Shown piece after piece: positions 24,339 to 28,356 of a stretch of DNA of 64,000 nt (its first letter is position 1; every line of letters begins with the position of its first letter). Position numbers and translations under genes: made by a program. Below the pieces are notes generated by a model. The model searched no databases. It was not told where the DNA came from and saw only the letters and a list, made by a program, of their open reading frames with translations. Source of the DNA: Parvibaculaceae bacterium (GTDB lineage Bacteria; Pseudomonadota; Alphaproteobacteria; Parvibaculales; Parvibaculaceae); contig JAPWJY010000004.1 of the NCBI GenBank assembly GCA_028283765.1, forward strand, positions 1 through 64,000. Direction: 5' to 3'.

Positions 24339-25130
24339 TTGGCCAGATTCACTTTCTCGGTCGAGGAGGGCATCGCGACGCTGCTTCTCTCGAATCCGCC
24401 GCAGAACCGGCTCAACAGCGCAACCTCGGCGGACTTCCGCGCGGCGGTGGAGACCGTGCAGGCCGACCATACCATCCGCGCCCTCGTCATCCGCGCCGAG
24501 GGCGATAACTTCAGCTTTGGCGGCGATATCAGCAACTGGCTGGATGTGGACCCGGCAGCGATCGGCGCGGGCATCGGCGAGGGGCTCCAGCAGTTGCGCG
24601 CATTCGAAGAGCTTCGGGTGCCGGTGATTTCGGCGGTTCAGGGCATCTGCCTCGGCGGCGCGTTCGAGATCGTGCTGCGCACCGACATCATCGTCGCCGC
24701 GGAGGATGCGCGGTTCGGGCACTCCGAACAGACTCTGGGGCTCATCACGCTCATGGGCGGCGTCCAGCGCGTCGCCGAGCGCGCAGGCCGGGCGCGGGCC
24801 CTTCGCTGGGCCATGACCGCCGAGCGCGTGCCGGCGCGGGAAATGCTGGAGGCGGGCGTGATTACCGAGATCGTCCCGAACGGCCAGCTGGTGGAGGCGG
24901 CCTACAACTGGGCCCGGCGTCTGGGCAAGGGAGCGACACTCGCTCATGCCGCCCACAAGAAGATGATGAACGCCTGGTCCAACGGCGGCATTGCTGCGGC
25001 TGACGCCCTGATTCCGGAACTGGCCGAACAGCTCTGGCAGACAGAAGATGCGCACAAAGGGATCGCCTCCGCGCAGGACGCCCTTCGCCGTGGTGTCGAA
25101 CGTCCCATCCTTGAGTTCGACGGGCGCTGA
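24339..25130 (+). CDS. Enoyl-CoA hydratase/isomerase family protein
   Basis: 263 residues of the crotonase fold. The oxyanion-hole loop near EGDNFSFGGDISNWL is clear, and the second signature GICLGGAFEIVLRTDIIVAAEDARFGHSEQTLGL holds both glutamates at the positions of the catalytic pair. Translation starts at TTG 24339, with GGAGGA eight bases upstream; no suitable ATG exists. It acts on acyl-CoA thioesters; with the preceding reductase it could belong to a short fatty- or aromatic-acid route. Convergent with a TetR gene 31 bases on. Confidence 0.88.
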   Translation: MARFTFSVEEGIATLLLSNPPQNRLNSATSADFRAAVETVQADHTIRALVIRAEGDNFSFGGDISNWLDVDPAAIGAGIGEGLQQLRAFEELRVPVISAVQGICLGGAFEIVLRTDIIVAAEDARFGHSEQTLGLITLMGGVQRVAERAGRARALRWAMTAERVPAREMLEAGVITEIVPNGQLVEAAYNWARRLGKGATLAHAAHKKMMNAWSNGGIAAADALIPELAEQLWQTEDAHKGIASAQDALRRGVERPILEFDGR

Positions 25131-25150: not shown

Positions 25151-25171
25151 CCGGGGATAATTTATTCCCGG
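25151..25171. terminator. Hairpin between convergent genes
   Basis: CCGGGGATAA-T-TTATTCCCGG can pair over about nine bases (one G-U) and sits between the enoyl-CoA hydratase stop and the TetR stop, overlapping the latter. There is no long T-run on either side, so intrinsic termination is possible but not certain. Confidence 0.45.
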
Positions 25172-25791
25172 TCCGCGGCGGCCGTCGCTATGGCCAGTTC
25201 CGTATCCCGGACCAGTTCGTCGATGATCTCCGCGACGCTGATCCTGCGAATCTTGGGCGGGAGCAATCCCTGCTCGGCCAGCATCACGATGCCATGCATC
25301 GACGTCCAGAACTTGAGGGCGAAGCGCCTGCGCGTCAGGTCGTCGAGCGCGGGATTCACCGATTCCAGTATCAGGTCGAAGCTCGCGTCGGCGGCCGTAT
25401 AAAGCTCGCTGCCGACGGGTGCGCGCTGCAAAAGACGCGAGGCATACATCAGCCGGTAGAGTTCGACATGGCGCAGACCGAAATCCAGATAGGCGTGCGC
25501 GATCTGTCCGAGTTTCGATGTCTCCGCGGTAGGGTCGATCATCTCGCGGAAGGCCGCGCCGAACGTCCGGAACGCCTTGGCCGCCACCGCCGCCAGTAAT
25601 TCCTCTCGATCCGCGAAGTGCCGGTAAGGGGCGGCCTGGGAGACGCCGAGACTTTTCGCCAGCGCGCTGAAGCCCACGGCTTCCGGCCCGCCGCGCTCGA
25701 CCTCGCCCATGGCGGTTTCGATCAGCGCCTCGCGGAGGCCGCCATGATGATAGGCGTTCGGCGCCTTTCGGGCAGGGGAGGATCCAGTCAT
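25162..25791 (-). CDS. TetR-family regulator with WHG-type C-terminal domain
   Basis: 209 residues. After YHHGGLREALIETAMGEVERGG, typical of the WHG subgroup, comes the HTH (VGFSALAKSLGVSQAAPYRHFADREELLAAVA). The C-terminal ligand domain has HVELYRLMYAS and ALKFWTSMHGIVMLAEQG. ATG 25791 is the start; a long upstream open frame is a shadow of the divergent gene. It is divergent from a VOC gene, and the 120-base gap holds two copies of TGTAATA-N6-AACATT, one touching this start codon, suggesting autoregulation and control of the neighbour. Confidence 0.9.
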   Translation of the reverse strand: MTGSSPARKAPNAYHHGGLREALIETAMGEVERGGPEAVGFSALAKSLGVSQAAPYRHFADREELLAAVAAKAFRTFGAAFREMIDPTAETSKLGQIAHAYLDFGLRHVELYRLMYASRLLQRAPVGSELYTAADASFDLILESVNPALDDLTRRRFALKFWTSMHGIVMLAEQGLLPPKIRRISVAEIIDELVRDTELAIATAAADRE

Positions 25792-25858
25792 GTAATACCC
25801 TATAACATTCGTCTTGACGGAAGAGAACGGGGCATGGAATGTAATAATATAAAACATT
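25791..25858. promoter_or_regulatory. Paired operator-like boxes TGTAATA-N6-AACATT
   Basis: Copy 1 at 25791-25809 and copy 2 at 25840-25858 share TGTAATA and AACATT exactly with the same 6-base spacer, 49 bases apart start to start. Both contain ATGT...ACAT arms. They lie in the divergent gap between the TetR gene and the VOC gene; copy 1 begins at the TetR start codon. The region is strikingly AT-rich for this genome. Best explained as TetR operators (inference). Confidence 0.6.
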
Positions 25859-25911: not shown

Positions 25912-26439
25912 ATGAGCCGGATTTTTGGTGCGGTCCGTCAGAACGGATATGTGGTGCGCGACATTCGTGCGGCCATGGACCATTGGGTCAATGTGCTCGG
26001 CGTCGGGCCATGGTTCTATGCCGACCGGGTCAAGACGGACTATTTCCGGCACCGTGGCGTGGATTCGCCGGTCGAGATGAGCATTGCGCTGGCGAATTCC
26101 GGCGATCTCCAGATCGAGTTGATCCAGCAAAGGAACGATGCGCCTTCCATGTACAAGGAGTTCCTCGACGCGGGTCACGAGGGCCTTCAGCACATGGCTT
26201 ACTGGACGAACGACTATCAGGCGCTTTACGACCGGGCGCTCTCCCTTGGCTACAAGGTGGGGCACGAAGGCCGGATCGGCGGCGAGCAGGGCCGCTTTTC
26301 CTATTTCGACACTGCGCTTCATCCCGGCACGGTGGTCGAGCTTTCAGATATCAGCGGCAACAAGGGACGGTTCTTCGAACATGTCCGGCAGGCCGCGAGC
26401 GGCTGGGATGGTTCCGAACCGGTCCGCACCGTTGGATAA
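25912..26439 (+). CDS. VOC family protein (methylmalonyl-CoA-epimerase/glyoxalase-like)
   Basis: 175 residues, start set by GGAGGAAGG just upstream of ATG 25912. The fold begins QNGYVVRDIRAAMDHWVNVLGVGPWF, then IELIQQRNDAPSMYKEFL and EGLQHMAYWT, ending GTVVELSDISG. The His in GLQHMAYW and the Glu in VVELS are candidate metal ligands. Related VOC proteins accompany acyl-CoA catabolic clusters, including, as I recall, the itaconate cluster of Pseudomonas aeruginosa. It heads the plus-strand pair that borders the catabolic island. Confidence 0.85.
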   Translation: MSRIFGAVRQNGYVVRDIRAAMDHWVNVLGVGPWFYADRVKTDYFRHRGVDSPVEMSIALANSGDLQIELIQQRNDAPSMYKEFLDAGHEGLQHMAYWTNDYQALYDRALSLGYKVGHEGRIGGEQGRFSYFDTALHPGTVVELSDISGNKGRFFEHVRQAASGWDGSEPVRTVG

Positions 26440-26484: not shown

Positions 26485-26922
26485 ATGAACATGAATGACC
26501 TTGAAGAACGCCGCCTCAAGACGGTGCGGGATCATATGGCGCTGGAATGCGCCTGCGACTGGGATGCCGTCATCGCCACTTTCGAGCATCCCCGCTACGA
26601 GATGTATGGCCCGGGGACAGTGTTCGATGGCGAGACGGCGGTTCGCGGCTATTTTGCGGCCTCACGCACGCCCTTTCCCGATCAGGCGAACGAGATCATC
26701 GCCATCGCGCATGGCGGGAATACGGTGCTCGTCGAGTTCTGGCTGACCGGCACGCATCTGGGGCCGCTGAGACTTCCGGGCGGAGTGGTCGAGCCGACCG
26801 GTAAATCGTTTCGTGTCAGAATGACGGCGACGTTCGAGTTTCCCGATGGCGGAGACAGGATCATCTGTGAACGTCCCTATTTCGATCAGGGGGCGGTCTT
26901 GAGGGAACTTGGGCTTGTATAA
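26485..26922 (+). CDS. SnoaL/NTF2-like protein
   Basis: 145 residues, a small alpha+beta cone fold: RDHMALECACDWDAVIATF, YGPGTVFDGETAVRGYFAASRTPFPD, then VLVEFWLTGTHLG and a strand-rich end. This is the polyketide-cyclase/NTF2-like pattern of small-molecule isomerases or binding proteins. Two in-frame starts (26485, 26491) are equally plausible. It lies 45 bases after the VOC gene and is probably cotranscribed; it ends 25 bases from the convergent MmgE/PrpD gene. Confidence 0.78.
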   Translation: MNMNDLEERRLKTVRDHMALECACDWDAVIATFEHPRYEMYGPGTVFDGETAVRGYFAASRTPFPDQANEIIAIAHGGNTVLVEFWLTGTHLGPLRLPGGVVEPTGKSFRVRMTATFEFPDGGDRIICERPYFDQGAVLRELGLV

Positions 26923-26947: not shown

Positions 26948-28291
26948 CTATTCAAGCTTCATCATTGAGTGAATGTTGTCGGCGCTCTCAAGGCTTTCGA
27001 TCCGTTGCCGCAGTCTTTCCGCCCGTTCGGGGCCAATGACGGGTCCGGTCAGGCTGCGGAACTTGCGAAGCAGACGCTCGCCCTGACGCTCGAGATTGCG
27101 GTCCGGAATGCCGACATCCGTTTCCGCGGTAAAGCTGCCGCCGGATCTGGTTTTGATCAGAATATCGGCACCCGTTCCAGCCCTGCGGTCGCCGTGAATG
27201 GTTGTCCGGTTACGGATAGCCACGAGAGCCGGGTCGAGGGCGATTTTGTCCGAGTAGCTTTCGGGAGCCGCCGTATCGATGCCGCTTGCGGCCAGGGCGG
27301 CGACATGGGCAAGGCTGAACTTCACTTCAAGTCCGGTGTGTGGAGCCGGGATGTTGCAGACCTTGAGGTGACCCGGCGCGACGTGAATATCGATGGAGGC
27401 GATGTCATCGGGAAGGAGCGCGCCATCCCGGCAGAGGCCGCCAACGGCCTCGATGCTCGAATGGGTGAGGTAGCAGGCGGCGTGAAACTTGAAGAGCGTG
27501 TCGGCGACCCTGTTGCCCGGAAATTCAGGCGGCGTTTCCGGCATTGTCCTGCGATCGCTTTGCGTGGCGATAAACCCTTGCGGGACGCCGAGCACATCGG
27601 GGTGAGCGGTGAAGCCGCGTCTGGCGAGGCGCGCGGCGAGAACGCCGTTCGATGCCGCCTTGCCTGCATGAAACGGCTTGGCCATGGTGCCGAACATCGA
27701 CTTCAGCCCGGCGGCCTGCGTGCCTGCAAGGCCCAGCGCCATCGCCATCTCTCCTTCATCGAGATCGAGCAGAAGACCGGCTGCCGCCGCTGCGCCGAAA
27801 GAGCCCAGGGTCGCGGTTGAGTGAAACCCGCGATCATAATGGGAAGGCATGGCAAGGGAACCGATGAAGGCCGCTGCTTCATAGCCCGCGATAAAAGCGC
27901 GAAGGACTTTTTCGCCGGACGCCTGTTCCGCTTCGGCGATGGCGAGCACCGCCGGGAGTATCGCGACCGTCGGATGACCGACGAGGGGGTGGACATCGTC
28001 ATAATCAAGCGCGTGGGATGCCGCGCCATTGATGAGCGCCGCGTCTGCGGGCGCGCATTTGCCGGTCGATCCGACGATTGTTGCCTCGCCTGTGGAGTGG
28101 CCCGCGATTTCTTCGCGCAACAGGCGCGCCACGGGCTCTTCAAGGCCCGCAAGCGTCACCCCGAACCAGTCGAGAATGCATTGTTTGGCGACCGTGACGG
28201 CGGCGGCGTCGGGCGCCGCATCTCTGCCCGCAACGATGCGGCGAGCCAGTTCCATTGTGACCGGCTCGCTATGTTCGATGTCTTCCGCCAT
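26948..28291 (-). CDS. MmgE/PrpD family protein (dehydratase or decarboxylase), copy 1
   Basis: 447 residues, full length. DWFGVTLAGLEEPVARLL, DYDDVHPLVGHPTVAILPAVLA and GLAGTQAAGLKSMFGTMAKPFHAGKAASNG are the family blocks. MmgE/PrpD includes 2-methylcitrate dehydratase and cis-aconitate decarboxylase; sequence inspection cannot choose between them. ATG 28291 follows GGGAGGA. It is the last gene of the minus-strand operon with SDR, acyl-CoA dehydrogenase, CitE, CaiB and MaoC genes, so a branched di- or tricarboxylate substrate is likely. Confidence 0.88.
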   Translation of the reverse strand: MAEDIEHSEPVTMELARRIVAGRDAAPDAAAVTVAKQCILDWFGVTLAGLEEPVARLLREEIAGHSTGEATIVGSTGKCAPADAALINGAASHALDYDDVHPLVGHPTVAILPAVLAIAEAEQASGEKVLRAFIAGYEAAAFIGSLAMPSHYDRGFHSTATLGSFGAAAAAGLLLDLDEGEMAMALGLAGTQAAGLKSMFGTMAKPFHAGKAASNGVLAARLARRGFTAHPDVLGVPQGFIATQSDRRTMPETPPEFPGNRVADTLFKFHAACYLTHSSIEAVGGLCRDGALLPDDIASIDIHVAPGHLKVCNIPAPHTGLEVKFSLAHVAALAASGIDTAAPESYSDKIALDPALVAIRNRTTIHGDRRAGTGADILIKTRSGGSFTAETDVGIPDRNLERQGERLLRKFRSLTGPVIGPERAERLRQRIESLESADNIHSMMKLE

Positions 28292-28356
28292 CCGTTCGGT
28301 CCTCCCTCTCATCCCCCCGTTTTACTGGGCGTTTGTTCGATCTGGTTGATGCGTGT

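Follow-up and report, generated by a model that had tools for sequence, protein, structure and literature searches.

A predicted operator pair between a TetR-family regulator gene and a VOC-SnoaL gene pair in Parvibaculaceae, and its counterpart in Bradyrhizobium-type loci

The 64,000-nucleotide stretch of Parvibaculaceae DNA analyzed here (hereafter the window) contains exactly two copies of the motif TGTAATA-N6-AACATT, at positions 25791-25809 and 25840-25858 of the + strand, between a gene for a TetR-family regulator and a gene for a VOC protein. This raises the question of whether the two copies are operators of the adjacent regulator and, if so, which genes are placed under its control. 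A first-pass annotation had drawn attention to the duplication, and both exact copies are indeed present at these places. It had further taken them to define a small regulon that may be linked to the enoyl-CoA hydratase side of the locus; in sequence comparisons the boxes behave as operators of this TetR, but the link to the hydratase side had to be abandoned.

Genes and palindromes at the locus

The tetR gene (25162..25791, minus strand) codes for a protein of 209 amino acids with the TetR_N and TetR_C_33 domains. Its N-terminal helix-turn-helix domain is recovered by PF00440 with 39.1 bits against a cut-off of 24, as expected of a TetR-family member, and its C-terminal part by PF13305, an all-helical ligand-binding and dimerization domain, with 49 bits against a cut-off of 26.8. 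We take PF13305 to be the former 'WHG' domain. The predicted model of the protein is all-helical (mean pLDDT 88.3) and its fold matches include many TetR-family regulators, the best being PDB 3on2 (E 3.5e-07, TM 0.72, 33% identity), a probable regulator from Rhodococcus RHA1. FasR and KstR likewise share the TetR fold, at 17-20% identity to the window protein in the fold matches. As the closest structure, 3on2, is titled as being of unknown function, the fold names no ligand. The protein scored 34.7 bits against a cut-off of 330 with the NCBIfam equivalog model for FasR, and the other eight TetR-type models listed for the protein all scored far below their cut-offs.

Divergent to tetR is the predicted target, a VOC (Glyoxalase_4) protein gene (25912..26439, plus strand). 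It is followed by a gene for a SnoaL-like protein (26485..26922, plus strand), with which gene order and conservation predict co-transcription. The VOC protein scored 21.5 bits against a cut-off of 114.95 with the NCBIfam equivalog model for methylmalonyl-CoA epimerase; in a PDB sequence search it resembles 3gm5 (E 8.2e-15), and the same type of search recovered no relative of the SnoaL protein at E<=0.001. The trio is bounded by an enoyl-CoA hydratase gene (24339-25130), convergent with tetR, and by an MmgE/PrpD gene (26948-28312), convergent with the SnoaL gene.

Both motif copies are parts of a 21-bp imperfect palindrome described by AATGTnATAnnnTATnACATT, and the two palindromes, neither of which is assigned to a strand, start 49 bp apart. 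The predicted operator box 1 (CATGTAATACCCTATAACATT) occupies 25789..25809 and box 2 (AATGTAATAATATAAAACATT) occupies 25838..25858. Since each box is palindromic, the 7- and 6-base ends of the motif can be understood as parts of the two half-sites of a single dimer operator. The boxes are located inside the 120-bp gap between the start codons of tetR and the VOC gene, or at its edge, and box 1 touches the start codon of tetR, as the first-pass annotation had also noticed: the box opens with 25789-25791, whose complement is the ATG. A TetR-type operator is expected to be a palindrome in the intergenic region next to its regulator gene, and the two conserved, imperfect palindromes agree with this. 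In each box 7 of 10 positions pair, and 407 of the 63,979 21-mers of the window pair equally well or better; as this is unremarkable by itself, the weight of the boxes comes from their repetition and conservation.

Within the window, seven matches to the motif were found at up to three mismatches, two of which are the boxes themselves read on the opposite strand; shuffled sequences gave a mean of 1.93 matches and none of 100 reached seven. Across the 3,236,079 bases of its own genome, the window pair represents the only exact occurrences of the motif, with eight further matches of two mismatches each, so that the scatter of unrelated exact copies that would have spoken against a specific site is not seen. 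A search with the 19-bp core of the palindrome likewise recovered only boxes 1 and 2 at zero or one mismatch, the next five sites having two. This search gave 36 near-matches per strand against 11 for a reversed-pattern control, and therefore weak matches in the own genome are uninformative. A wider regulon was considered on the basis of the five two-mismatch sites, none of which is convincing: three are inside ORFs, and the two outside long ORFs are situated between genes for a transport protein and a GGDEF protein, and between convergent ORFs lacking Pfam domains. The earlier suggestion of a small regulon thus agrees with both searches, which predict a regulon of one locus in this genome.

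Distribution in Parvibaculaceae and across the class

Orthologues of the TetR (E<=1e-40) were detected in seven of 40 family genomes, counting the source genome, and these span four genus groups. All seven are divergent to orthologues of the VOC and SnoaL genes (74-87% and 76-94% identity, respectively, in the six other loci), and every one of these loci has two boxes at up to three mismatches, which are 48, 49 or 50 bp apart. Sites with at most one mismatch occur in 6/7 TetR carriers as against 0/33 non-carriers, and sites with at most two in 7/7 as against 3/33; two carriers each have one extra two-mismatch site away from tetR (G010:C4 and G038:C33).

The genes outside the tetR-VOC-SnoaL trio vary between the scanned family loci: the neighbors are an ApeA-like HEPN gene and a zinc-ADH-domain gene in G001, an MPAB/Lcp oxygenase gene in G039, cysteinyl-tRNA synthetase and cytochrome P450 genes in G031, and SDR, sigma factor and DUF1329/DUF1302 genes in G010. 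The P450 gene of G031 (L135, 11432-12703) is located about 0.7 kb past the SnoaL gene, and its product shows 27% identity to the Bradyrhizobium P450 discussed below. As to the proposed connection to the enoyl-CoA hydratase side, the hydratase gene is convergent with tetR, and no third box is present in the window at up to four mismatches. Moreover, a search at E<=1e-8 around the other six family loci, two of them on short contigs (3.2 and 12.2 kb), recovered no homologue of the window hydratase, alcohol dehydrogenase or thioesterase. Because there is neither a third box in the window nor a match of this quality at the six loci, we reject the link to the hydratase, alcohol dehydrogenase and thioesterase genes. 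The zinc-ADH-domain gene just past the SnoaL gene in G001 has no match to the window alcohol dehydrogenase at E<=1e-8, and three family loci show weak matches to SDR and acyl-CoA dehydrogenase (24-32% identity).

The next issue is whether the boxes follow this regulator or the genes beside it. Among 30 VOC-orthologue loci from across the class, boxes were found in the two that are beside this TetR, and no box was detected at up to three mismatches in any of the other 28 (stretches of roughly 3 kb); one of the 28 box-less VOC genomes, G396, has this TetR elsewhere. Similarly, no box at up to three mismatches was detected beside any of the more distant TetR paralogues, of which 26 loci were compared. 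These observations bear on the alternative that the boxes are operators of another, unlinked regulator and are merely situated beside this TetR. Unlinked regulators can act in divergent gaps, and the operator role of the adjacent TetR rests on sequence comparison. Nevertheless, the sites with at most one mismatch track this TetR orthologue across the 40 family genomes and the boxes are absent both from the 28 VOC loci away from it and from the 26 paralogue loci, and we accordingly regard an unlinked regulator as quite improbable.

The region of the recognition helix, VSQ(A/P)APYRHF, is common to all 14 orthologues aligned, which come from both clades, whereas V(A/T)HxAPANHF stands at this place in three of the four box-less paralogues included in the alignment. 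L031, the remaining one, has VSQTAPYHHF and is thus close to the orthologues in this region, yet its locus is box-less.

A looser pattern, AAnGTnATAnnnTATnACATT, is found at one mismatch in 66 of 385 class genomes (with at most eight candidates scored per genome), namely in 3/3 detected carriers of the TetR orthologue versus 63/382 others. By visual inspection, 54 of the 66 genomes are under 3.0 Mb, and the 12 larger ones comprise the three carriers and nine non-carriers. Given its presence in 63 of 382 non-carriers, the motif has diagnostic value through its position and not by itself.

Several features of the class-wide VOC and SnoaL loci were recorded in their own right. In L140 (G220:C5), a VOC orthologue (78% identity, 1501-2022) is divergent to a different TetR, which has its own palindrome, CTTACGAACGATCGTTCGTTAG, at 2077-2098; a SnoaL orthologue is about 1.5 kb away on this contig, and similar enzymes thus occur beside a different regulator. 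Genes for carboxymuconolactone-decarboxylase-like proteins were found in 3 of the 6 VOC-orthologue loci scanned for them (ORFs being listed for 9 of the 28), directly adjoining the VOC orthologues in three class genomes (L144, L146 and L148), and are a possible hint at the function of the VOC protein. An attempt to derive this function from the neighbors of VOC orthologues found no consistent partner. An SDR gene directly adjoins the SnoaL orthologue in L136, L203 and L207.

Bradyrhizobium-type loci with ferredoxin and P450 genes

A scan of genome contigs for relatives of the TetR gave 311, of which the best 80 were retained; two of these are family contigs already counted. The remaining 78 (75 titled Bradyrhizobium; 49-56% identity to the window TetR), together with one class genome (L184), make up a set of 79 distant loci. 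In 67 of the 79 we found a box along with ferredoxin and P450 genes, the ferredoxin match starting no more than 250 bp from the box. The 12 remaining loci (L041, L050, L052, L054, L055, L060, L061, L081, L083, L087, L089 and L099) lack box, ferredoxin and P450 alike in the flanks covered, which extend to about 5 kb either way at most. A whole-genome search for the box covered 17 genomes, those of 11 of these 12 box-less tetR loci (all except L052) and six others. Each of them has exactly one site at up to two mismatches, 16 matching the clade pattern without mismatch, and in 17/17 this sole site precedes the ferredoxin-P450 genes; in the 11 genomes with box-less tetR loci there is no tetR in the 3 kb around it. 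The Bradyrhizobium regulator is in some cases not linked to its predicted target, and it seems to act on just one promoter in each genome.

This distribution leaves next to no room for the possibility that the boxes are relics, or repeats that arose by chance, in an intergenic gap rich in A and T. The motif itself has this composition, and its looser form does occur in the 63 class genomes without a detected orthologue; against this, sequence, number and spacing of the boxes are conserved in seven family genomes and a single box in 67 of the 79 distant loci.

It is box 2 of the window that has a counterpart in the Bradyrhizobium loci. By this comparison, the element common to both clades is the predicted target-promoter box with its CTTGAC, and box 1 looks like an addition of Parvibaculaceae. 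Three distant loci (L043, L044 and L068) have a weak second box with three mismatches, 47 bp from the main one and about 40 bp upstream of the TetR match, which recalls the two-box arrangement of the window's family. In three others (L076, L079 and L088) the main box ends in TATCACATT, lacks CTTGAC at the usual place and is 27 bp upstream of the TetR match versus the usual distance of about 75-95. A locus titled Frankia sp. RB7 (L104) has a Bradyrhizobium-like TetR, ferredoxin, P450 and operator, and is possibly mislabelled or contaminated.

The best PDB sequence match of the Bradyrhizobium P450 is P450cin, a weak hint at the ligand. Two published descriptions were considered as potential accounts of this system. 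The Bradyrhizobium TetR gene blr7984 is probably a different gene, because its neighbors in the excerpted account (PMC5017801) are genes for a glutathione transferase, a hypothetical protein and a dehydrogenase, and the main text mentions neither P450 nor ferredoxin. The other, PMC4070704, mentions neither palindrome, operator nor P450 in the portion of its text available. Among the matches listed from the open-licence PMC literature, titles and abstract openings held no description of the operator or of the VOC-SnoaL pair.

The putative promoter and the predicted switch

Between the two boxes lies the hexamer CTTGAC (25813..25818, plus strand), the putative -35 element of a VOC-SnoaL promoter, whose putative -10 element, TGTAAT (25840..25845, plus strand), is inside box 2, the spacer here being 20 bp. 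CTTGAC is found between the boxes in all seven Parvibaculaceae loci, where 19-20 bp, longer than the usual 16-18, separate the TTGACn hexamer from the TGTAAT (or its equivalent) of box 2. The Bradyrhizobium-type loci yielded 69 boxes, 66 main and three second ones. CTTGAC precedes 63 of the 66 main boxes at a spacing of 17-19 bp and is not at the expected place in the other three; its background in these loci is 2.4e-4 per base per strand, and the loci are related rather than independent. Such a nearly constant distance points to a box that covers the -10 region of its target promoter. Furthermore, in two Parvibaculaceae loci only 12 bp separate the end of box 2 from the VOC start codon, which fits a ribosome-binding site and is too short for a promoter. 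On these sequence grounds box 2 most likely covers the -10 region. A simple sigma-70 consensus scan, which allows spacers of 16-18, reported no promoter at the locus: the spacer here is longer, and position 2 of the second hexamer is not an A.

Based on these observations we propose that the boxes are, very probably, operators of the adjacent TetR, which would repress both itself and the VOC-SnoaL pair until a ligand appears. The genomes show directly the sites, the partial palindromy of each and the way they accompany the TetR orthologue group and CTTGAC; from this we infer binding, repression, promoter assignment, co-transcription and ligand response. A TetR dimer would bind each 21-bp palindrome. 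On box 2 it would block RNA polymerase at the VOC-SnoaL promoter, since this box covers the presumed -10 region (TGTAAT, with CTTGAC as -35), and on box 1 it would lower TetR synthesis by autoregulation, since that box covers the start region of tetR. A small-molecule ligand, probably one that the VOC/SnoaL enzymes act on or a compound related to such a substrate, would release TetR and thereby turn on both transcripts.

The geometry of the locus has precedents. Among nine TetR regulators of Streptomyces, the divergent neighbor was repressed in all five cases with gaps under 200 bp, the same arrangement as here, according to the excerpted text of PMC3511530. The same excerpt reports that with gaps over 200 bp one of four regulators activated its neighbor and three had no regulatory effect. 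Together with the long spacer of 19-20 bp, this lends some color to the view that the TetR is an activator, or that the boxes are purely autoregulatory and the VOC-SnoaL pair is uncontrolled. We consider this view unlikely: box 2 is over the presumed -10 of the VOC gene and not upstream of the -35, and in 11 of the 17 Bradyrhizobium-type genomes the sole box is before the ferredoxin-P450 genes and away from tetR, so that autoregulation alone cannot be the conserved role.

The proposed arrangement, in which TetR represses itself and a divergent target, is of the ordinary bacterial TetR type. Classical TetR also controls itself, and the target of the classical tetR-tetA system is an efflux pump, whereas here it would be the VOC/SnoaL pair. 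Like the present locus, the classical system has a divergent regulator and target with two palindromic sites (excerpts of PMC9736018 and PMC3511530); its two 15-bp tetO sites, however, are 11 bp apart (PMC9736018) compared to the 48-50 bp from start to start seen here, and the operator sequence differs. The TetR-type regulator PA3973 of Pseudomonas aeruginosa similarly has, at the -10 region of its own gene, two sites that are palindromic or pseudopalindromic, but its motif is SAAGRNMTGAACG and it has more than 300 ChIP sites, as opposed to the one predicted locus here (same excerpt of PMC9736018). The inference of operators from conserved inverted repeats is the approach of Snowprint, described in general terms in the part of PMC10858194 available. 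Both PMC3511530 and PMC10858194 include, in the parts available, binding or reporter tests, while the operators reported here are known from comparative evidence.

The less ordinary part, as judged from the genome comparisons, is that the regulator-operator pair appears to persist while the operon under its predicted control differs between the clades. As a possible scenario, which we put forward tentatively, two alphaproteobacterial groups would have retained the pair and exchanged the operon under it, this being VOC-SnoaL in one and ferredoxin-P450 in the other. If the sensed molecule is the same in both, the two enzyme sets would represent alternative ways of processing a single compound, and the ligand of the TetR could be deduced from the Bradyrhizobium P450. 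The regulator and its operators form a well-delimited pair whose predicted regulon is a single locus; pairs of this type are useful as biosensor parts. The cross-clade comparison of a similar operator with different targets could identify the ligand of an uncharacterized TetR, and could also reveal the role of the uncharacterized VOC/SnoaL pair.
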